Below are positions 2,788 to 43,476 of a stretch of 64,000 nt of DNA, piece by piece. The position numbers and the translations under genes were made by a program. Every line of letters begins with the position of its first letter. Positions within the stretch are counted from its first letter, which is position 1. The stretch is from assembly GCA_960531495.1 (NCBI GenBank), contig OY482848.1, positions 20,735,897-20,799,896 on the forward strand, written 5' to 3'. The notes under the pieces were generated by a model, which was given only the letters and a program-made list of their open reading frames with translations, was not told the origin of the DNA and searched no databases. The DNA comes from Zeus faber. Lineage: Eukaryota; Chordata; Actinopteri; Zeiformes; Zeidae.

Positions 2788-3292
2788 GCTTCAAGTGCAC
2801 CCCAGCACCCTCCTGGTTACATTCCTCTCCTTTCCTCCCTCATTTACTGCCATAACTATGACAGGAAGAGGCCACGTGACCAGTTGTAGTTCCAGTTTTC
2901 CTGGACCTAATTAACCTAATTAATGTTGTCGTCCAATGTTTGTTTTTGTGTAAATGTTGTTTGTTTCTATGTTTATTTGTCTCACCCGTGGTGATTCTCC
3001 CCCTCTTGGAGTAGTGATCAGTTGTTTATAGACCCAAACATGATAAATAGTTCTCATAAGAGGGGGGTTGGTGGTGGTTCTCTTTAACCAAAAACTGTGC
3101 GCTTGTCATTCTACAGGTCGTCCACAGGACAGAGTTATTGCAGCAGTTCTTGATGATTTAAGAATGAATAAAGAGTTGCATTGCAGGTTGAGAAGTTGAA
3201 CTCCACTTGCACACTAACTCTGTCCTGATGCAATAGCATACAAATACTCTGTGTTGTATGCCCAGCATGCTGACAGCACAGGTAAAAAAAAA
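2589..3292 (+). mobile_element. 5'-truncated L1-type LINE 3' end
   Basis: This stretch is the reverse-complement counterpart of 34780-35310. Both copies share the opening ACCAGTACCAATGG segment, an internal CA/TG microsatellite, the CCACGTGACC segment, and an end reading GCTGACAGCACAGGTA followed by poly(A). At 34780-36023 the same sequence lies directly downstream of an L1-type ORF2 C-terminus, so it is inferred to be the element's 3' UTR. Here only the UTR and a 9-base A tail (3284-3292) remain. ATGTATG-rich sequence on both sides (about 2572 and 3292) may be a target-site duplication, but it lies in TG-rich DNA and is weak evidence. Confidence 0.7.
2661..2786. repeat. (CA)n microsatellite inside LINE 3' UTR
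   Basis: About 60 CA units, interrupted once by a TC, within the LINE 3' UTR remnant. Long open frames across it are runs of His-Thr or Cys-Val and are not genes. Confidence 0.95.
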
Positions 3293-19449: not shown

Positions 19450-19912
19450 GCACAAGCCAAATGGGGGGTGACAAATGAGAACATTTCTCACACGGGTTTT
19501 AACAAACAGGGACATTTTTGTCACGGGGTCAGCAAGTGGGAACATGTTTGACATTCAGGGATGCACCCACTTACGCTCCACCAATGGGAAGTTATGCCAA
19601 AATGTGAATGGTTTGGAGGGGTACCCTGACACATGGGAAACCCTGACCACTCAATTCAAGTGAATGTTAAATGTCATCGCCTAATATTTTTACATTTGGC
19701 ATACAGTACTTTCAGGGTACCAAAGTGGACAACTAGAAATGGCAGAAATGTTCCAAATTGTCAGAATGGGACTTTGTGGTACAGGTACGCTGACACATGG
19801 ACATCCTGACCACTCCATTCATGTATGCTAAATGTCATCTCCTAATATTTTGATATTTGGAATACTTTTGATGGGATAGTCAGGGTTCCCATATGAATAA
19901 TTGGAAATGGCA
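19450..19912. repeat. Alternating inverted-repeat array, cluster 1
   Basis: Two units of about 165 bp, each carrying a reverse arm and a forward arm. The reverse arm reads CCTGACCACTCCATTC then TATGCTAAATGTCA (19640 and 19805). The forward arm reads ACATTTGGCATAC then a GGT(C/A)AGGGT(T/A)CC-type end (19689 and 19850). The arms are complementary, so each unit can fold. A linking block, GTCAGAATGGGACTTTG then TGACACATGG, also recurs. The same family forms the larger array at 30.7-32.7 kb. Confidence 0.8.
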
Positions 19913-20243
19913 GAGATATCCTCAGTCAGAATGAAACTTTGTGCAGGTCCTTCTCCTTCTCCTCCTCCTCCTCTTCCACCACAGCCCGCCTCAGGAGCCT
20001 GCATCCGAGAAGCCTGGTCCAAACCTCACTCTGGCCCACCTTTTCATCCTCCTCTCCAGCCCAAGCAATTTCCTCAGTCGGTGCAGTCTGTCAAAAAAAA
20101 CACACATATAGAAAAGGAAAGATTATTGTTGACCCATGCTGTCTATATATTTCTCAGTTGCTTTGTCTCAAATTCCTTATGAAACAACTCAGGATTCTTT
20201 CCTCTGAGCTCATGTAATAATACAACACTCCTAGGGTCTAGGG

Positions 20244-30480: not shown

Positions 30481-30720
30481 ACAGCATATTGTCACCAATC
30501 TGCCCAACTTTGCCAGGAGCTGCGCAACTACTCAATCGTCACACCATCCTCACTTTGACTCTTCCAAATAAACCCAATTTTTTTTTAGATTTCATGGAGG
30601 TGATTTGGTCATGCAGCCTTGTTCTAGGCCCTGCCCACTCTGCATGTGAAAAATTAGGGGTCTCTTGGACCTTCTTTTGAGAAAATGTACATTTGAAAGT
30701 TTTCAAGGATGGGAAAATAT

Positions 30721-31500
30721 TTTCCATTTGCAATTGTCCATTTGGAAAACCTGACCACTCCATGCAAATGTATGCTAAATGCCATTTCCTATTATTTTGA
30801 CAATTGGCATTCTTCAGAATGGGGTGGTCAAATGGGCAATTGCAAATGGAAAACATGTTCCCCTCTGTCACTGGCATTTGGGATTTTTTTTTGCCATTTT
30901 CAATTGTCAATTTGAGAACCCAGACCACCCCATTCAAAGGTATGCCAAATGTCAGATCTTAGTCATTCCCTAATATTCTGACATTTGGAATTGTTTTGAA
31001 TGGGGTGGTTAGGTTCCCAAATGGACAATTGCAAATTAAAGCATAAATGTTCCCATTTGTCAGAAAGGGACTTCCTGATACTTCATGCTTTCACCTGGTG
31101 CTCCAGGTACACTGAAACATGTAAATCCTGAACGTGCCATTCAAACGTATGCTTTATATGAAAATATGAGGTTCAATCCCTTGCATTCAAACCCTAACCC
31201 AAACATCAAATTTGACACAAAGGACACTTGGCGACCTTCTGAACTTTGAGCTTGTTTTTGGGAGTCTTAACATGCATCCAGAAACACCAAGATCATTTAA
31301 ACTCTTCACTGCAACACCAATATTCATTTGGAAAAGGTTGCAGCTTTCTAGCTCTAGCATAAAGGGTCAAAATCCAGTGAAATTAAATGAGATCTTCTGA
31401 TCTTTCAAAGTTTCCCTTTGTGTCGATTCGGGAATATTCTTAACATTCCGACATTTAGCACACATTTGAATGGGGTGGTGAGTGTTCCCATTGTCAATAG
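30721..31500. repeat. Alternating inverted-repeat array, cluster 2a
   Basis: Reverse arms at about 30723, 30893 and 31122 (partial). Forward arms at about 30798, 30979 and 31448. The forward arm is a TGACATTTGGCATAC-like block, then TTTGAATGGGGTGGTC, then GTTCCCAAATGGGCAATTG. The reverse arm is its complement. Arms strictly alternate in orientation, with a full period of about 170 bp. Confidence 0.85.
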
Positions 31501-32082: not shown

Positions 32083-32219
32083 TGTGCATGTGTGTGTGTG
32101 TGTGGGGGGGGGTATAATTAAAGTGAAGTGTATTTATTTGTTTAATTGCCAATATTTTTTTATTTTAATATTATCATATTTATTTACATTTTGTCAGCCA
32201 CTTCAGTATTGGGCAGAAG

Positions 32220-32710
32220 TGTTCCAATTTGTCAGAAAGGGACTTTGTGGTCCACATACACTGACACATGGAAAGCCTGACTGCCCCATTGAAACGTATG
32301 CCAAATGTCAGAATATTAAGCAATGACATTTAGCATTCATTTGAATGGAGAGGTCAGGGTTTGCATGTGTCAGGTTACGTCCCATTCCGACAAATGGGAA
32401 CATCTCTTCGATTTCCAGTTTTCCATATGAGAACCTACCACATACAAAAGAATGCCAAATGTCAAAATATTAGCTGACGATATTTGGCATACATTTAAAT
32501 GGGGTGGTCAGGGTTCCCAAATGGGCAATAGCAAATGGCGAACATGTTCCTCTTTGTCACTGAAATTTGGAAACAATTCTTCCATTTCCAGTTGTCCATT
32601 TGGGAACTCTAACCAGGCCACTTAAAGAAATTTCCAAATGTAAGATCTGTCATTCACCAATATTTTGACATTTGGCATACTTTTGAAAGGGGTGGTCAAT
32701 GTTTCCAAAT
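32220..32710. repeat. Alternating inverted-repeat array, cluster 2b
   Basis: Reverse arms at about 32270, 32408 and 32583. Forward arms at about 32326, 32479 and 32666. The clearest forward arm is ATATTTGGCATACATTT then AAATGGGGTGGTCAGGG then TTCCCAAATGGGCAATAG at 32479-32540. Preceded by the linking block GTCAGAAAGGGACTTTG then TGACACATGGAAAG, as in cluster 1. Confidence 0.85.
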
Positions 32711-32882
32711 GTTTTAAGTATGCCATACTTTCAGACCTGTGTGAATCAAATAGGAATGTTTTTATTTGTTTTTTACTTCAGACATGACTTTGCCAAAGAG
32801 CAAAAACTGCTGCCCTGTGTGCCTCAAGGTGAATTTGGCCATGTCCAATCACCTTCGACGGTCACACAGGGTATTGAATGCA

Positions 32883-33282
32883 AAATTAGTAGTTTGCCAA
32901 ATTGCTGATAACATTTTTGAAAACTTTGTAGTTGGATAAATTACTGATAATATTTTCAACAGCTTTGTAATTAACTAAAATTGCTAATAAAACTTTTTAA
33001 AGCTTTTGTAATATACCAGATGGCTGGTTTTTGAAGGCTTTGTGATTTATTAAAAAATGATGATAAGGTTTTTAAAAGCTTTTGTGGTATATGCTGATAT
33101 TTTCAGTAGCCTTGTGGTTTATTGCTGATATTTTTTGAAAAGCTCTATAGTTTGCTGCTGATATTTTCGGAAGCCTTGTGGTTTATTGCTGATCATTTCA
33201 GAAGTGTTGTGGTTCATTGCTGATATATTTATCAAATTTCTGTAGTTTACTGCGGATATTCTTGAAAAGCCCTGTGATTTAA
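32883..33282 (+). repeat. Degenerate 31-39-bp minisatellite
   Basis: About 11 diverged units of the type GCCTTGTGGTTTATTGCTG then ATATTTTCGGAA. The last five units (33109-33270) are 31-33 bp long. The array ends directly at the retroviral leader-like stem-loops, so it may be part of a decayed LTR or a separate satellite. Confidence 0.75.
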
Positions 33283-33822
33283 GGTGTACTTCTGAGATAC
33301 CGCCTCTAATAGAGAGGGACTGCTTGGTCAGAAGTGCATTTTTATTCTGAGATACCGCCTCTAATAGAGAGGGACTGCTTAGTCAGACGATCACTGAAGT
33401 CTATGATACCGCCTTAAGGAGAGAAGTCTCTTAAGGGTCTGCTTGGATAGACTGATAGGTTCTGCGATACTGCCTCAAGAAAGTGCACTTCAAGAGGGTC
33501 TGCTTGTGCAGAACCGAACTCTGCAGATAAAACTTAGCAAGAAAAAGCTTGCTAAGTACTGAACGGGTGGAGTATGAAATAATAGAAACTGTATTTAGCT
33601 GCTGAAAGAAAGAGAGTGAGGAAAAAAAAGAAGAGGCCTCGAGCAGAGAACAGAGAAAACCAGAAGGAGGGAGTTTCCCTGTGACTCTGTGTCTGTGTGT
33701 GTGTGATGGGGGGGGGGGGGGGGCAACTCTCTCTGTGTGTTTAAGTGGTTGTGTGTGGCAGCTGCAAAGCTGGTTGTGAAATTGTGTTATAAAACAACTG
33801 TGGAGGAACATATCATGTAACA
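33283..33822 (+). other. Retroviral leader-like region with stem-loop array
   Basis: Lies directly upstream of the gag-like frames and matches a 5' untranslated leader by position. It holds four related stem-loops (33286-33338, 33346-33387, 33398-33453 and 33458-33515) and a fifth simple hairpin (33532-33557). Each of the four has an outer stem, an internal loop with GATACYG on the left and GWCTGCTT on the right, and an apical stem starting CC and ending GG. No primer-binding site or LTR end is recognised upstream. A poly-G run is at 33708-33723. Confidence 0.75.
33532..33557 (+). other. Perfect 10-bp hairpin
   Basis: ACTTAGCAAG and its exact complement flank a six-base AAAAAG loop. It follows the four structured stem-loops in the leader-like region. 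Confidence 0.9.
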
Positions 33823-34779
33823 TTGTGTGAGGAGTTGGAAGTTCTGAAAAAAAAAACCTATAAACTAGGACACAAGAAAGAGAAAAGGGTAGAGAAGAGG
33901 GGAAAAGAACTAGAGGTATTGAAAATGTTCAAGGAAGAAGCTGAGGGATGGAGAAAGAGCATGGAAAAGGTCAAAGAAATGGTGATAGAAAGAATGGAGA
34001 CAAAGAAGGGGATGGTAGATAATAAGGAGAGACCACCCCTGTACAATCAAGGGCAATACCGAATAGTGAAAGGAAAGGTAGATATGTTGAGAGAAGTGAA
34101 GATAGAAAATGAAGAACAAGAACACAAGGATAAAATGGCCAGAAACCTATATCCAGACTGAGAGTATGAGGAATAACTGTTATGGACTGAAGGGAGATAA
34201 GACCCAGGTGAGGGAACTAAGGAACCTCGAGCTCATGGCTAGTCCAGCCATTGCAGGAAAGGATAAAAAGCTTTAATAAAAGAAGAGAAGCACTCCAAAT
34301 GTAGAATATTTCACGCAATCAATAGCCCAATCCCAATGTCCAATATTATAAAAAGGAGAAACAAGCAAATTTATCGAATGGGGAACGTAAGACTTAGTGG
34401 CTTGATATTGACCTTACCCAACATAAATGAGGGAGCAAGTGAGTGGATCAAAAAATTTGAAAAGCAGACAATAGGAAAGATAATAGCGGTGGGAGACCTG
34501 AAAGCGCTGAGTACTGGGGGTGAGTAGCATGAGTAGAGCGTATTAAGAAAAAAAGGCCTAGCAGAAGCTATGCAGGAAGTGCTTTGGGATGGCACTGCTA
34601 TTGATGAATACAGACTACAACTGTGGGGAGCACTGAGGGAGGAGTATCTGACCTGAGTAGATCCATAAGCATTGAAGGGACAGTCGATGGGAGAGGCAGA
34701 GGACCTCGCCTCTTATATCTAAAGTCAGGTCAAGAGTTGGCGGATGGAGACCTGGAAACGGATCCGATCATATCTGTAC
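33823..34779 (+). pseudogene. Endogenous retrovirus gag remnant, cut by L1
   Basis: The first frame (33823-34161) is Lys/Glu-rich and helical, then has RPPLYNQ, a PPxY late-domain motif (34033-34044) of the kind that recruits ESCRT through Nedd4-type ligases. After stops and shifts a second frame (34336-34527) carries LPNINEGASEWIKKFEKQT, matching the start of a retroviral capsid. Further pieces include QLWGALREEY (34615 onward) and ETDPII (34756 onward). The coding sequence stops at 34779, where the poly(A) end of a minus-strand L1 begins. No in-frame ATG is seen at the start of the first frame. Gag by family builds the particle core; this copy is broken. It is on the opposite strand to the pol/env relic at 21-25.6 kb. 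Confidence 0.72.
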
Positions 34780-36023
34780 TTTTTTTTTTTTTTTTTACCT
34801 GTGCTGTCAGCATGCTGGGCATACAACACAGAGTATTTGTTTGCCATTGCATTCAGGACAGAGCTAGTCTGCAAGTGGAGTTCAAGTTCTCAACCTGCAA
34901 TGCAACTCTTTATTAATTCTTAAATCATCAAGAACTGCTGCAATAACTCTGTCCTGTGGACGACCTGTAGAATGACAAGAGCACACTCTTTGGAGAACTA
35001 TTTATCATGTTGGGGTCTGCAAAATGTAATGTAATGTAAAACATAGAAACAAACAACATTTACACAAAAACATGAACACTGGATGACATGTATTGATAAA
35101 CAGTGAATTAGGTCCAGGAAAACTGGAACTAAGACTGGTCACGTGGCCTCTTCCTGTCATAATTATGGCAGCAAATGATGGAGGAAAGGAGAGGAATGCA
35201 CTTGAAGCGTGCGTGTGCGTGCGCGTGTGTGTGTGTGTGTAAGATGTCCACCGGTGTACATGACTTATCCCCATTGGTACTGGTGTAGAAGGTTGGTATT
35301 ATGTGGCGGCGCCTCCAAGCATTGGAGCCCCGTGGACACCCCTCGGCTGCAGGAAATCCCCGGGTACCCTGCCCTGCGGCCTCAGAAGACCCCCAGGCCC
35401 CCAGAGAAGCCAGAGGGCCATGGAGCAACCCCCACGCCCAGCCCCGAGGAGCATGACCCCGTCCCAGGGAGCACAAGGAGACACCGCACCTGAGGGGCGC
35501 ACACATACAACCAACCCCCGGGTGCAGGCACAAGACGCAGCCACCGGCACAAAACCCGGGCCATGGGCATAAGGCCCGGATCACGGCCCCACAGCGACAG
35601 ACCAACACCCCGCCAGAGAGACCCGCTCCACGGGCGAGCCGGCAGGACCCCCACGCCCACCCACGCCCCGCACAAGGGGGAGGCCCGCCCCACCGCAGCC
35701 GACCAGAATGCTAGGATAGGTGGACAGAGCCAGAAGGCATGAAAGTAGTCATCTCTGGTATCAAGGGAACAGTGAGAGCAAATACCTTCATCCACAAAAC
35801 CTATTTTGAACATTTTGTGTTCCGTGATATGGGCTCTGTGCAAAATCTTGTATTGGATGAGTTGCATTTTGGAGTTGCGGGTCATAGAAAAGGTAGAAAA
35901 GCCATAGAAAAGCCTCACAAGATCACGACTTGCTGTTCGCCTCCAGTTAGGAATCTCAAACATTTGAACTCTTAAGAGATCGAGCAATGAACCATTCCTG
36001 TATAAATCCTTCCACCACATCAC
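34780..36023 (-). mobile_element. L1-type LINE 3' part inserted in gag
   Basis: On the plus strand a 17-base T run (34780-34796) is the element's poly(A) tail. The 3' UTR (34797 to about 35690) includes the part shared with 2589-3292 and a GC-rich stretch (35310-35700). The end of ORF2 follows. A TG microsatellite (35211-35240) occupies the same place as the CA repeat of the other copy. The 5' limit is unclear; sequence up to about 36600 could belong to it. Confidence 0.8.
35690..36023 (-). pseudogene. L1-type ORF2 C-terminal fragment
   Basis: The minus strand reads WWKDLYRNGSLLDLLRVQMF, FYGFSTFSMTRNSKMQLIQ, KILHRAHITEHKMFKIG, then CSHCSLDTRDDYFHAFWLCP. The last has the Cys-His pattern (CxxC...HxFWxCP) of the zinc-knuckle-like C-terminal domain of L1 ORF2. 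It lacks endonuclease and RT. It is from a different L1 lineage than the one at 25.7-30.1 kb, judged by low sequence similarity over this domain. Confidence 0.8.
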
Positions 36024-37239
36024 CCCTTTATCGCTCCTTTCACTCTATGGCCTATCCTGCTGCTTAAAAATAAAAAACATTGCTTTAAACTGATGTGACC
36101 GTGCTCAAACCAATGATACACAATATTTTTTTTTTGCTGTGACAAGGCTCCAGGGTTAAATTCCAGATAAAATACAAAGGAATTTATTTTATTCATACAA
36201 TAAAACACAATAGAATTCCAGATTTGTGCCAGCACGGATCCATGTCTAAACCCACGCAGTTGAAATTGGTAGGAAATGTGATTCTTGTCATATCTGAGGC
36301 TAGAAAATGGATAAGAAATGCCAGATATAATAGGTTGTATATTTTTAGGCTGCCTAGCATTGCTAGTAGCATATTTGGCAGCCAAACAGTATTTCGGTAC
36401 TGATTCTAGAGAAATTCTAGAGAAAATTCAAAATTTGCCCCTGCCCAATTTTTCAAGTAGTTTTTGGTCTGACATTGCAAACTCCTTCGGCACATTTTTA
36501 CTTACAGATTTTGCTCTCTTGGTACTGTGTCTTTGGCCAATTAGTCCTGGCACATTACTTAAGATTGTAGATGCAAAACGTGCATTCCAAATGTTATAGA
36601 AGAAATATCCTAACTCAAGCTCTGCCGTAGACCATAGCTCTGCCAGAAGGAACTGGAGTAGTTAATGAATTCTTTGCAATGAACAATGGCATTTTTTCAA
36701 ATGACATTTTTAATGTCATTTGAAACTGAAGTATCAGAGCTTCAAAACAAGGTGTCACTTGTGCAAATCAAGCAACATTTTTTAAAGCTATGACTTGTTA
36801 ATGACAAGGGTGTGGCAAACTGTGTTTCTGAGATAATCACCCTCAAAGTTTTCCCCCACACTTGGCTTCATTCAGCCAGCTCCCAGAATGCGAATGGTTT
36901 TGAGGACCAGCAAAGCCACAAATCTACTTCTCACATGGCCACTGGACACCCTGCTGAATGGGGACTTGACACCCCTGCTGAATGGGGCAATCTCTGCGTT
37001 GTTCTTGTGTTTTGAAAGAATGTTGACATCTTTTGTTTTTAAAAAAGCTTTAAATTTAACAGTAAGAATATACATGTTTTATAAAAGTGGAATCATTTGG
37101 GAGTTTAAAAGTGTGAATAACACAACTAAATGTTTAGACTATCAATAATATGAGTCTCTGTATATCAGCCTTGGTGTGTCATTTAATATATAAATGTGCA
37201 TATGCCAAATAAATTCAAAGTTCTTGGAGTTATTATGTG
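36024..37239. other. Unassigned sequence between L1 and the DUF7869-like gene
   Basis: A minus-strand frame (36024-36385) and a plus-strand frame (36318-36599) overlap. Neither has recognisable motifs. The first continues upstream of the L1 fragment and may be its decayed ORF2 or an unrelated insertion. From 36600 to 37240 nothing is recognised. Confidence 0.4.
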
Positions 37240-37249
37240 GGCTAACTCC

Positions 37250-39441
37250 AACCCTTCCCCAGCTACACTCTGAGAGCCTGTTTGGGGCTGCCTCTTCCGA
37301 CTGGTGGTGCTGGGCAGGTGATGTCCTGGGCATCGTCATCACAGAACTCTCTGATCTTGTGGAAGAGGTGGCTCTGTCTGGCTCTGTCCAGTCCAGGTGG
37401 CGGCATAACAGGAAATACAACTCTGGGGGGCAGGGCATGGATGTCACAGAGCAGCTGGAACCTGGTCTCCTCGCCTCCAGAAGACACCTTGGCCGCCACC
37501 ACACCAGGATCCTTGGCATCAAAGCTGGAAGACATGAAATTGAATCTAAATCCAAAAATTCTACTTATACATATTTTTGTTTTATTATAACATTAGTTTA
37601 AGCTTTGTAGAATCATTACTTGCAGTTTATTCACAAGATAACTTGCCACTTGAAGCTTTGCACCAGTTCTGTGCCATCCTCTTTCTCCACTAGTTGAGGG
37701 ATGTTGATTGTCTTTACCATGCTGTTTTGAACAACTGCTGCAATATCAGCAAGAGTGTTCACCCTCGTCTTTTGGAAATGCTGCTTGATAAGTCCAAAGC
37801 ACCAGTCTGGTGAAAACTTGTTGTGGCCTGGTATCAGGAATTGGAGATCCATGGGATGGGGCAGCTTATGCAGTGTACGCCAAGCACAGTACCACAGCAT
37901 GAACTTTTTTTTTTCTGTCCACTACAGTTGTCACAGTGAAGGTCTACCTGGGTCTTCCCAAGACCGTAGTCTTGGAAGAAGTGGTGTGGGTAACTTATCA
38001 CAGCGTTGCAGTCTTTGATGGATGACAAACCTTCGTCCACAAAGTAGTTGACTTGCTGTTGTATTCCCTTACAGCAGACACCAAAAAGGCCACACTTTTG
38101 AGGAGTCAAGAAGTACATTGGGCCTGGCTGAAGGGGATCTGATGGATAATGAACCTGAAAAGAAAAATATAGGCTTTAAGAAAAAATGTGACTAACAGAA
38201 AATGTGCAAATGCAGTGTTTGATCTGTCAGGTTCTTGAATGTTGTTGGTGTGTGGGGTATTTAATACCATAGCACCATAGCACTTAGCACTGTCCTCTGC
38301 TCTAAAAGATGAATAAAACAAAAATCTATCTATGCCCCTTGATAAATCTATCAAGGGGCAACTCAACCTACCTGTAGGGATCAGTGATACTGGATGGCAA
38401 CAGCTTTCCGGCAAAGTTTTTCTGATTTGTGTTGCATCCCGGCAACACTACAGCATGGTCCTCAACATAGTTTGTGATGGAGGTCACGACTTTTCATATT
38501 TGCTCGTGCGTAGAAATCGCTTGTTTGCCCGCAGACCTCTTTTCCTTACATGAGCAATGATGCCATTCTCTTTCATGTGTTGGTAGATCGCACTGGGGCG
38601 GCTGTTTCCAATTCTGTCAATAAAATTGGGAAAATACATCACATTTAGCAGGAAATATGCACATCAATATGTTAGCCGGAGATGTAGGCTTACGGCCTTT
38701 AACCGGATGGCACCGTTGTAATAATTACAGGTGAATGAAGAGAAACACCATCCACTGAGTATTGGGTCCACTACCTTTTTCTTTTGGTTGGTGTTTTTTT
38801 GTTGTCTGGAGTCATTTCACTGCATCTCCTATTGCAGAATACTGTAGCTGTCCTATGTTAAACATGTCTGTGTCCTGCTTTGTTAAGGCTGCTATCATGT
38901 AGCATGATCTATAGATAAAATCAGGATCCAGTCTGTTTGTACATGATTCCTGGTCAAGCCTGCCATTTTATTTTTGCCCCTGGCCGCATTTGCAGGTAAA
39001 CTTGAAAATCTTGTCCATTGCAACTTGGTCATAATCTGCATCACCAACCTCAACGGACTTCATCACGACATTAACTTCTTCCGTTGTAACAACAATAGGA
39101 GTATCATCGGTCTCCTCCGGTGGTTCTTGAAAATATCCCATTTCGTCATCACTTTCAGGTTGAAATCCGCTGTTTGAAATGTTCTTCAAGTCCGGGATAA
39201 TATCAGATTTAGCAGCTCTGTCGTTCTCTGCATCGCTGTCGGAGAACAGGCTATCATCGCGGAAGATGTTGTCCAGAATGAGCTGCTTACACTGACTTGG
39301 ATCTTTCGCACTGGTCAGATTAAGGTCCGAGATCTGATTTACAGCTTCCGCCACCCACTTCTTGTAATCCATAACAACACAGAGATGAAAGTTTTCACAG
39401 ATAAGTGAAACGGAAGAATCTTTGTGCTGTGCTTTAACCAT
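37250..39441 (-). pseudogene. DUF7869-like multi-exon gene, probably transposon-derived
   Basis: Four coding blocks run on the minus strand. 39441-38968: acidic N-terminal part (start ATG at 39372 or 39441), ending FKFTCKCGQGQ, probably the start of a Cys-rich region. About 38622-38372: NSRPSAIYQHMKENGII then NYVEDHAVVLPGCN and LLPSSI. 38154 to about 37643: FLTPQKCGLFGVCC, DLHCDNCSGQ, WYCAWRTLHKLPHPMDLQF, HNKFSPDWCFGLIKQHF. 37524-37250: DAKDPGVVAAKV to HLFHKIREFCDD. The 217-bp intron between the second and third blocks has GT-AG ends (GTAGGT donor, pyrimidine-rich TTTTCAG acceptor). The pattern matches a multicopy family of predicted fish proteins (the DUF7869 label is from memory). The HxDNCxGQ motif resembles a DDE-type catalytic position, an inference. 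Breaks: a frameshift near 38490 and a 10-A run at 37905-37914 one base off frame. Confidence 0.75.
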
Positions 39442-39910
39442 CTGTTTACGGAAGTGACATCATCTTTTTTCTTCTTCGCGGCTTACGACTCTACACAACA
39501 ATGGATCCAGGTGTGTTTTAAAGTAGTACGATTTGAAGGTTGAACTCTATCAAAACGGTTTCACATTGTGACGCCACATCACATGGAATATGGAGGAATG
39601 ATCTTCACCTGGACTGTCTATGTAAAGGAAACGATCAATCGGCGTTGTTCAGTGCTGTTCAGTGTCTCGGTAAGTGAACTGTGTTTCCCCATGGAATCTT
39701 ACGGGAATATTTCACTTGATGGTTTAACATTTATCTACTATTTATAAATCAAACTCGGTTTTGAAAATACATTGAGAGATAAAAAAAAACACAAAGGAAC
39801 ACAAATCTGAAAAAATCTACTTTTCCTTAGTTGACAGATTTGTTCAACTTATTTGGCTGCTCCTGGTGATTTTAGAAATGCGCGAGATGGCAGGTTTTGC
39901 TGCGGTTGGT
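39442..39910. other. Upstream of the DUF7869-like gene, no gene recognised
   Basis: Contains the presumed 5' region of the minus-strand gene. I found no clear terminal inverted repeat matching the other side of that gene. Confidence 0.5.
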
Positions 39911-40908
39911 CACAATGCACCTCTTCGGTACCAAACCAGTCTCTGTTAAAATACTCAGATGACTCCACCTTATTGACTATGTTGAAAAGTACTGATGATC
40001 CCACTCTGAATCAGAGAAATGTTGATTGGTTTGTGGAATGGTGTGACAAGAACGCCCTTATTATTAACTCAGTAAAGACTGAGGAAATCATTTTTGGTAA
40101 GCCCCCAACTTGCCCACCCCCCAAAGTGATGATCCACAATGTTGAAATTAATCAAGTCTCTGCATATAAATACTTAAGTGTCATGATAGATGAGAACCTC
40201 TCATGGACCCCTCACATGGATTTTCTTGGTAAAAGGATACAGCAGCGCATTTATTTTCTCCAGAGATTAAAATCGTTTGGGGCCAGCAGTCAAATTATGT
40301 ATTTATTTTTTACTTCTGAAATTCAGAGCATCATGCTCTACTGTAGCACTGCCTGGTGGAGCAACCTCACAGTGAAAAATAAAAGTAAACTTTAAAATCA
40401 GTTAAAACTTTGCTCCAAAATCATTGGACTTCCTGTAGCTCAAGCCTTTCAAGAGGCCCATAGCAACAGCTTGGTTAGGCTGGCCATAAAGATTTCCTCT
40501 GACTCGACACATGTTTTGCACAATGAATATCAGCCCCTGCCTTCAAATAGGCGCTTCAGAGTCCATTCCTTCAATCGAAATAGGTTTAAAAACTCCTTTG
40601 TACATCAGTCCATTCTACTACTAAACGAACAAAAATGATTCCAGAGCCTTTTATGATTTCATGGGTATTAGTCTTCTTATGTCTTTGTAAATTGTCTTAC
40701 CTGTCATTTATCCTGTGCTTGTCTAATCTGTCATCTGTGTTGTTTGCGTATCGTATTGCATACTTGTATCCTTTCTTGTCACTCCAGTGATTGTTTATCT
40801 GTACTTCCTGAATGTTTTGAGGGGCCTTTCCCAGGGACGCAAAATGTATTTCAGTGCCCTACTGACCAATAAAGTTGTATCGTATCGTATCGTATCGTAT
40901 CGTATCGT
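39911..40908 (+). mobile_element. 5'-truncated Rex1-like LINE
   Basis: Starts within the RT and runs to a 3' end GACCAATAAAGTTG followed by about six ATCGT pentamers (40878-40908), a microsatellite-type LINE tail. Only the second half of the RT and the C-terminal region are present. Confidence 0.82.
39914..40640 (+). pseudogene. Rex1-like RT C-terminal half
   Basis: CTSSVPNQSLLKYSDDSTLL contains a YSDD in place of the usual FADD/YADD catalytic motif, so the first position fits but Ala is Ser. NVDWFVEWCDKNALIINSVK and VSAYKYLSVMIDENLSWTPH follow (thumb region), then QRIYFLQRLKSFG. The frame stops at 40395. Beyond the stop the sequence still reads QLKLCSKIIGLPV and PLPSNRRFRVHSFN to 40640, so the TAA is a recent lesion. 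Family function: copies the LINE RNA at the target site; this copy has no endonuclease or RT N-terminus. Confidence 0.82.
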
Positions 40909-42787: not shown

Positions 42788-43476
42788 ATGGGAAAGAAAA
42801 AGGATCTCTCTGCTGCCGAAAAACCTCAAATAGTGCAATGCCTTGGACAAGGTATGAAAACATTAGATATTTCACCAAAACCTAAGCGTGATCATCGTAC
42901 TGTGAAGAGATTTGTGGCTGATTCAGAGCACAGATGGGTTCGTGCAGATCAAGGCATTATGAGGAAGGTTTCTACCAGACAAATTAATGGGATTAAGAGA
43001 GCAGCTGCTAAAATGCCATTACAAAGCAGCAAACAGGTATTTGAAGCTGGTGCCTCTGGAGTATCGTGAACCTCAAGGTGTAGGATCCTCCAAAGGCTTG
43101 CAGTTGTGCATGAACCTACTATTGGGCCACCCCTAACCAATGCTCATAAGCAGAAACGGTTGCAGTGGGCCCAGAAATACATAAAGACACCATCTCATGC
43201 TGCAAAGAATACCTCTGTGTCATTGGCTGCTATGGGCATAAAAGGAGAGGAACTCATGGTGTGGCCCCCATCCTCCCCTGACCTCCACCCTATTGAGAAC
43301 CTTTGGAGCATCCTCAAGCAAAATATCTATGAGGGTGGGAGGCAGTTTGCATCAAAACAGCAGCTCTGGGAGGCTATTCTGACATCCTGCAAAGAAATTC
43401 AAGCAGAAACTCTCCAAAAACTCACAAGTTCAATGGATGCAAGAATTGTGAAGGTGATATCAAAGAAGGGGTCCTA
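42788..43476 (+). pseudogene. Mariner/Tc1-type transposase, core deleted
   Basis: The frame starts MGKKKDLSAAEKPQIVQCLG, an N-terminal helix-turn-helix, and continues DHRTVKRFVADSEH and AAAKMPLQSSKQVFEA (second HTH). A shift near 43060 leads to the second frame: PPLTNAHKQKRLQWAQKYIK. That joins directly to PSHAAKNTSVSLAAMGIKG, then WPPSSPDLHPIENLWSILKQ, the segment around the last catalytic Asp/Glu. The join removes about 100 residues, including the first two catalytic Asp residues, which fall before PSHAAKN in this family. No active enzyme is possible. Confidence 0.85.

Follow-up and report, generated by a model that had tools for sequence, protein, structure and literature searches.

A tandem array of four hairpins with a common internal loop in a probable retroviral leader of Zeus faber

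We describe a tandem array of four hairpin units in the genome of the fish Zeus faber, located within a 64-kb stretch of contig OY482848.1 (assembly GCA_960531495.1, positions 20,735,897 to 20,799,896, forward strand), hereafter the window, in whose own numbering all coordinates are given. The array occupies positions 33286-33517 of the forward strand, its units share the core GATACYGCC...GGGWCTGCTT, and a decayed reading frame resembling retroviral gag follows it. The array is real and covarying, and its setting is probably retroviral. The units are as follows.

Unit 1, 33286-33337, forward strand: outer stem ACTTCTGA/TCAGAAGT (33288-33295/33328-33335); left loop strand GATACCG (33296-33302); apical stem CCTCT/AGAGG; right loop strand GACTGCTTGG (33318-33327).
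Unit 2, 33341-33392, forward strand: 5-bp outer stem TCTGA/TCAGA (33346-33350/33383-33387); core identical to that of unit 1.
Unit 3, 33396-33455, forward strand: outer stem AGTCTAT/ATAGACT (33398-33404/33447-33453); long apical arm; right loop strand GTCTGCTTGG.
Unit 4, 33456-33517, forward strand: outer stem GGTTCTGC/GCAGAACC (33458-33465/33508-33515); left loop strand GATACTG.

A preliminary description of this DNA, made from the letters alone, had reported four tandem stem-loops with a common internal loop, and all eight arms of their outer stems were recovered where it had placed them. The core pattern GATACYGCCN{5,30}GGGWCTGCTT matches four times in the 64 kb, always on the forward strand and within 33296-33505, and not once in 100 shuffles. 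The loop plan first proposed stands as regards this pattern and has to be corrected as regards the right loop strand, which is 10 nucleotides (nt) long, GWCTGCTT being followed by two unpaired letters, rather than 8. The consensus internal loop measures 7 x 10 (GAUACYG / GWCUGCUUNN), and of the 15 letters in its conserved part 13 are invariant; units 3 and 4 are predicted to form a G-U pair there, which leaves loops of 6 x 8 in unit 3 and of 6 x 9 in unit 4. Units 1 and 2 are close copies with identical 30-nt cores, so that the array amounts to about three independent units.

Folding predictions agree with the drawn structure in unit 1 (-18.8 kcal/mol, z -2.6), including the apical stem described for it. 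In unit 3 (z -2.2) the outer stem is predicted as drawn and the apical arm is shifted by one register relative to the original drawing. Unit 4 folds with a z of -1.9, and its predicted apical 7-nt loop, AGUGCAC, contains the palindrome GUGCAC (33483-33488). In the two units compared, the forward strand folds better than the reverse (-18.8 versus -14.7 and -19.0 versus -15.6).

Pairing in the outer stems was assessed over eight fixed positions per arm, which yield 8, 6, 7 and 8 Watson-Crick pairs in units 1 to 4. When the same geometry was placed at random 100,000 times in the window, the best placement gave 21 pairs and none attained the observed total of 29 out of 32, in agreement with the earlier observation that the outer stems differ and yet pair. 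Of the 24 possible ways of matching left with right arms, the one that keeps the two arms of each unit together scores best, and the runner-up, with 27 pairs, merely swaps the closely similar units 1 and 2. When small offsets are allowed, the contiguous outer stems measure 8, 5, 7 and 8 bp, with single-unit chances, taken from 200,000 random positions, of 0.0012, 0.013, 0.0023 and 0.0012.

The alignment of the four units reveals how the stems have changed. Six of its 14 pairs are altered on both sides, the outermost of the six being unpaired in two units, and 48 of the 55 paired cells (87.3%) hold standard pairs; sliding the partners by one to three columns leaves between zero and two doubly changed pairs. 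Among 500 shuffles, the covariation score was reached by 3, the share of paired cells by 5, the number of doubly changed pairs by 24 and the number of pair types by 30, figures that are counts of shuffles and not probabilities. RNAalifold independently predicts the inner 12-pair structure, in which five pairs are changed on both sides. The central part of the outer stem reads TCT/AGA in all four units and does not vary, nor do three of the four apical pairs; because TCT/AGA is invariant and the CC/GG at the apical base lies inside the invariant core, those pairs are uninformative on covariation. A covariance model built from the four units, run against the window at E-values up to 10, recovered these units and nothing else, a match that follows by construction.

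As a control, the same measure of outer-stem length was applied to 22 loci elsewhere that carry the core or a two-unit pattern: 12 single core matches and 8 two-unit matches in viral contigs, and 2 two-unit matches in prokaryote genomes. Their outer stems span 0-4 bp, none reaching 5 bp, whereas those of the array measure 8, 5, 7 and 8 bp; a few of these loci seem to be duplicates of others, and they do not constitute 22 independent draws. These viral and prokaryote loci were also considered as relatives of the array and rejected, given that their outer stems fall below 5 bp; their number is no more than a rough chance expectation. Since the stems of the array have changed in matched pairs, we regard selection on its RNA structure as very probable, and the corresponding proposal of the preliminary description is well supported. 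That description had not recognised the motif, and a comparison of the whole window with Rfam 15 likewise returned no family at the gathering score. A match of mir-148 to unit 1, the best of three weak matches within 33200-33600, scored 18.7 bits against a cut-off of 53 (E 0.25) and was taken as chance.

Three further features flank or follow the array.

Degenerate tandem repeats of 31-39 bp, 32882-33281, forward strand: end just before unit 1.
Fifth hairpin, 33532-33557, forward strand: perfect 10-bp stem ACTTAGCAAG/CTTGCTAAGT with a 6-nt A-rich loop and no internal loop.
Gag-like decayed reading frame, 33793-34774, forward strand: open pieces at 33793-34158 and 34267-34524, then more stops.

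The fifth hairpin, absent from the preliminary description, starts 16 nt past the last outer stem of the array and folds with a z of -6.6, a value reached by none of 200 shuffles; the whole stretch 33280-33560, which includes it, has a folding z of -3.0. On the other side, 32990-33290 also folds better than its shuffles (z -4.6). Upstream of the degenerate repeats, a possible C2H2 zinc-finger exon was noted at 32787-32872 of the forward strand, where TLPKSKNCCPVCLKVNLAMSNHLRRSH lies by eye between AG and GT; its Pfam match is weak (zf-Di19, E 0.028, below cut-off).

By eye, the downstream frame resembles the matrix and capsid part of retroviral gag. Between 33925 and 34774 it contains 10 stops in 283 codons, as opposed to 27 in 283 and 19 in 282 in the other frames and a shuffle mean of 19.3. 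Searches covered the two longest open pieces, 33793-34158 and 34267-34524. Pfam gave only weak, non-gag matches below its cut-offs for these pieces, and neither had a relative in viral contigs or in a large protein database, the search of which compares candidates of similar length only, so that full-length gag proteins could not appear; the second piece had no relative in the PDB either. A pair of long terminal repeats (LTRs) was not found within 30.5-46.5 kb, nor by self-comparison of 30.5-35.0 kb against the whole window, although a truncated copy would also lack one, and the best of 13 primer binding sites compared shows 6 mismatches in 18 positions, which is not convincing. The retroviral, leader-like setting suggested at the outset is less well supported than the structure: it is inferred from the gag-like frame downstream, and a gag match, an LTR pair and a convincing primer binding site were not found. 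On balance, we consider it likely that the array lies in a retroviral leader.

Past the gag-like frame, a poly-T run at about 34785 is read as the tail of a long interspersed nuclear element (LINE) on the reverse strand. The LINE-like insertion itself spans 34785-36044 of that strand, with a weak zf-RVT match below cut-off, and its first 206 bases (34788-34993) recur at 3088-3292 with 95% identity. Apart from this 3088-3292 tail, the self-comparison yielded minisatellite and microsatellite matches and a partly palindromic repeat family at 30709-31081, 32212-32711 and 19621-19933, whose members are about 66-91% alike, occur in both orientations and probably represent a non-autonomous DNA element. 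The wider window is rich in repeats and contains many microsatellites, and a Tc1-like transposase piece and reverse transcriptase matches were obtained in four of ten open frames tested, contents that point to fish DNA. The Tc1-like fragment, at 43070-43474 of the forward strand, matches DDE_3 above cut-off and HTH_Tnp_Tc3_2 below it. An open frame at 39835-40392 on the same strand is LINE-like by eye and matches Pfam ALKBH8_N just over the cut-off (21.6 versus 21 bits). On the reverse strand, 37837-39459 holds two frames that include an acidic stretch and end rich in cysteine; Pfam offers no convincing match for them, and they are perhaps parts of one mobile-element gene. Perfect hairpins with stems of 14 and 12 bp, not microsatellites, occur at 36695-36725 and 38333-38360.

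The combination of free stems, a fixed asymmetric loop and four copies suggests a protein docking site used repeatedly on one RNA. Beside gag, such a site could plausibly serve in packaging together with dimerisation, in exporting unspliced RNA from the nucleus, or in translation. We lean towards placing packaging first, export as a close rival and translation, in the manner of a post-transcriptional control element (PCE), third. In the mechanism we propose, the array would act in cis as part of the untranslated RNA leader of an endogenous retrovirus, and its four paralogous hairpins would have arisen by duplication. Each hairpin would present the same asymmetric internal loop, clamped by two stems that are largely free to vary as long as they remain paired, and the loop may be bound by one protein, four times over, with multiplicity conferring strong binding. 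The partner would most likely be the retrovirus's own Gag, which would make the array a packaging and dimerisation signal for unspliced RNA, and the palindrome GUGCAC of unit 4 could act as a kissing-loop dimer site.

Our preference for packaging stems from four considerations. The place of the array fits, the gag-like frame being directly downstream on the same strand; an internal loop forms part of the main Gag site in stem-loop 1 (SL1) of human immunodeficiency virus 1 (HIV-1) (PMC8472981); the alphavirus packaging signals in nsP1 are made up of 4-6 stem-loops in which the base of the loop holds a conserved GGG (PMC8233893); and unit 4 carries its palindrome in the predicted apical loop. 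The array resembles the retroviral psi signal, of which HIV-1 SL1 is one example, in its presumed leader position by gag, its internal loop as a putative recognition site and the predicted palindromic apical loop of unit 4, and differs from it in repeating one large conserved internal loop fourfold and in matching no Rfam family at cut-off. With the alphavirus signal it shares stem-loops in a row that display a common unpaired motif, although both the virus and the motif are unrelated. Packaging as the main job of the array is put forward tentatively, as a serious possibility.

If the downstream frame is gag, a comparison of decay can be added. Its ten stops imply about 0.20-0.25 substitutions per site, at which rate some 15-19 changes would be expected over 76 core positions, and two or three changes suffice to explain the four cores (P of three or fewer at most 0.00022). 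The core thus seems better preserved than the decayed frame, which would fit a cis element of a non-autonomous copy mobilised in trans; we give this little weight.

Several points count against the packaging model and its retroviral setting. The Gag sites known from retroviruses are short, unpaired and rich in G, and a conserved loop of 15 letters with 13 invariant is unusual among them. The palindrome of unit 4 was noticed post hoc, and rough arithmetic puts the chance of finding one in about three 6-nt loop windows near 0.05. Unit 2 is weak, its predicted fold departing from the drawn one both in isolation (z about -0.7) and when the whole stretch is folded. Neither gag nor an LTR or primer binding site was confirmed. 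No homologous leader was found in viral contigs or prokaryote genomes, and the covariation rests on one locus with three independent units. The decay contrast vanishes if only 3 or 4 of the stops are true (P 0.26 and 0.10, respectively), and the core entered into it was picked for being conserved. The weight of the finding is therefore moderate, the array being known from one decayed locus.

A possible if rather unlikely account of the array is an RNA export element, distinct from the constitutive transport element (CTE) of type-D retroviruses but similar to it in action. Large sequence-specific internal loops suit such an element better than they suit known Gag sites. The CTE, too, is a repeated element, in which NXF1 binds directly to a conserved internal loop held between stems (PMC4330393, PMC4330390). 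The CTE of Mason-Pfizer monkey virus (MPMV) and simian retrovirus 1 (SRV-1), and its counterpart in NXF1 intron 10, are comparable to the array as putative protein docking sites, with the loop repeated in the viral element. The number of loops also varies among CTEs, with two in MPMV and one in NXF1 intron 10, and constructs with one and two copies have been built to examine what that number does (PMC6478720). A further likeness is offered by the MusD transport element (MTE), a structured RNA transport element of a retrotransposon (PMC3362945). The array departs from the CTE in architecture, being composed of four tandem hairpins with their own outer stems whereas the CTE places two loops in one two-fold symmetric arm. 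It departs also in position, since it precedes a gag-like frame and the known retroviral CTEs lie near the 3' end. Each half of the CTE carries AAGACA in its internal loop (PMC4330393); this motif is absent from the array, with even AAGAC on neither strand of 33286-33517, and identity with the CTE was rejected on this ground.

A translation element appears improbable. Here the redundant leader stem-loops would recruit RNA helicase A, as a PCE does, or another factor for loading ribosomes on gag RNA, and the placement ahead of the gag-like frame would suit that role. PCEs, however, are defined by dependence on RNA helicase A and are 5'-terminal, in R-U5 in HIV-1 and human T-cell leukaemia virus 1 (HTLV-1), while no LTR pair was found at this locus.

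It is about equally doubtful that the array is a functionless structured minisatellite, in which one palindromic unit was duplicated and its copies diverged. The degenerate tandem repeats adjoining the array upstream agree with such an origin, and the near-identity of units 1 and 2 and the TCT/AGA common to all four give the units a paralogue-like appearance. Neutral divergence, though, would not preserve pairing, and units 1, 3 and 4 differ in their stems and still pair at 8, 7 and 8 of the 8 positions. The distribution of conserved columns speaks to both sides: when the three distinct units are compared, 29 columns out of the 50 without gaps are invariant, and while their clustering into a single longest block was equalled in 214 of 2000 column permutations and is not notable, two conserved blocks of the length seen arose in only 22 of 2000. 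Least probable by a good way is a DNA element, in which tandem sites for a DNA-binding protein would occupy the leader, as in the insulator of the gypsy retrovirus, where tandem protein sites lie between LTR and gag, and the palindromes would be a by-product, since the core halves are indeed conserved as sequence but a binding site does not need variable flanks that are complementary within each unit.

No description of the array's motif was found in the literature searched, which leaves most subscription papers outside its coverage and so provides no proof of novelty. It is conceivable, though we would not expect it, that the array represents an undescribed class of retroviral docking motif: a 7 x 10 loop (GAUACYG/GWCUGCUU) that a lineage of fish retroviruses carries in tandem in its leader, to which Gag or a host export receptor binds at multiple sites, and which has been kept in a copy with dead protein genes.

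With four copies of one loop on different stems, the array is an unusually clean natural mutagenesis experiment. To our knowledge, packaging and export functions of this kind are known mainly from mammalian and bird viruses. Should the array recur in related elements, it would supply a compact, well-defined RNA motif, replicated within itself, with which its protein reader could be sought, and would test whether fish retroviruses package or export their RNA by way of a separate docking element.
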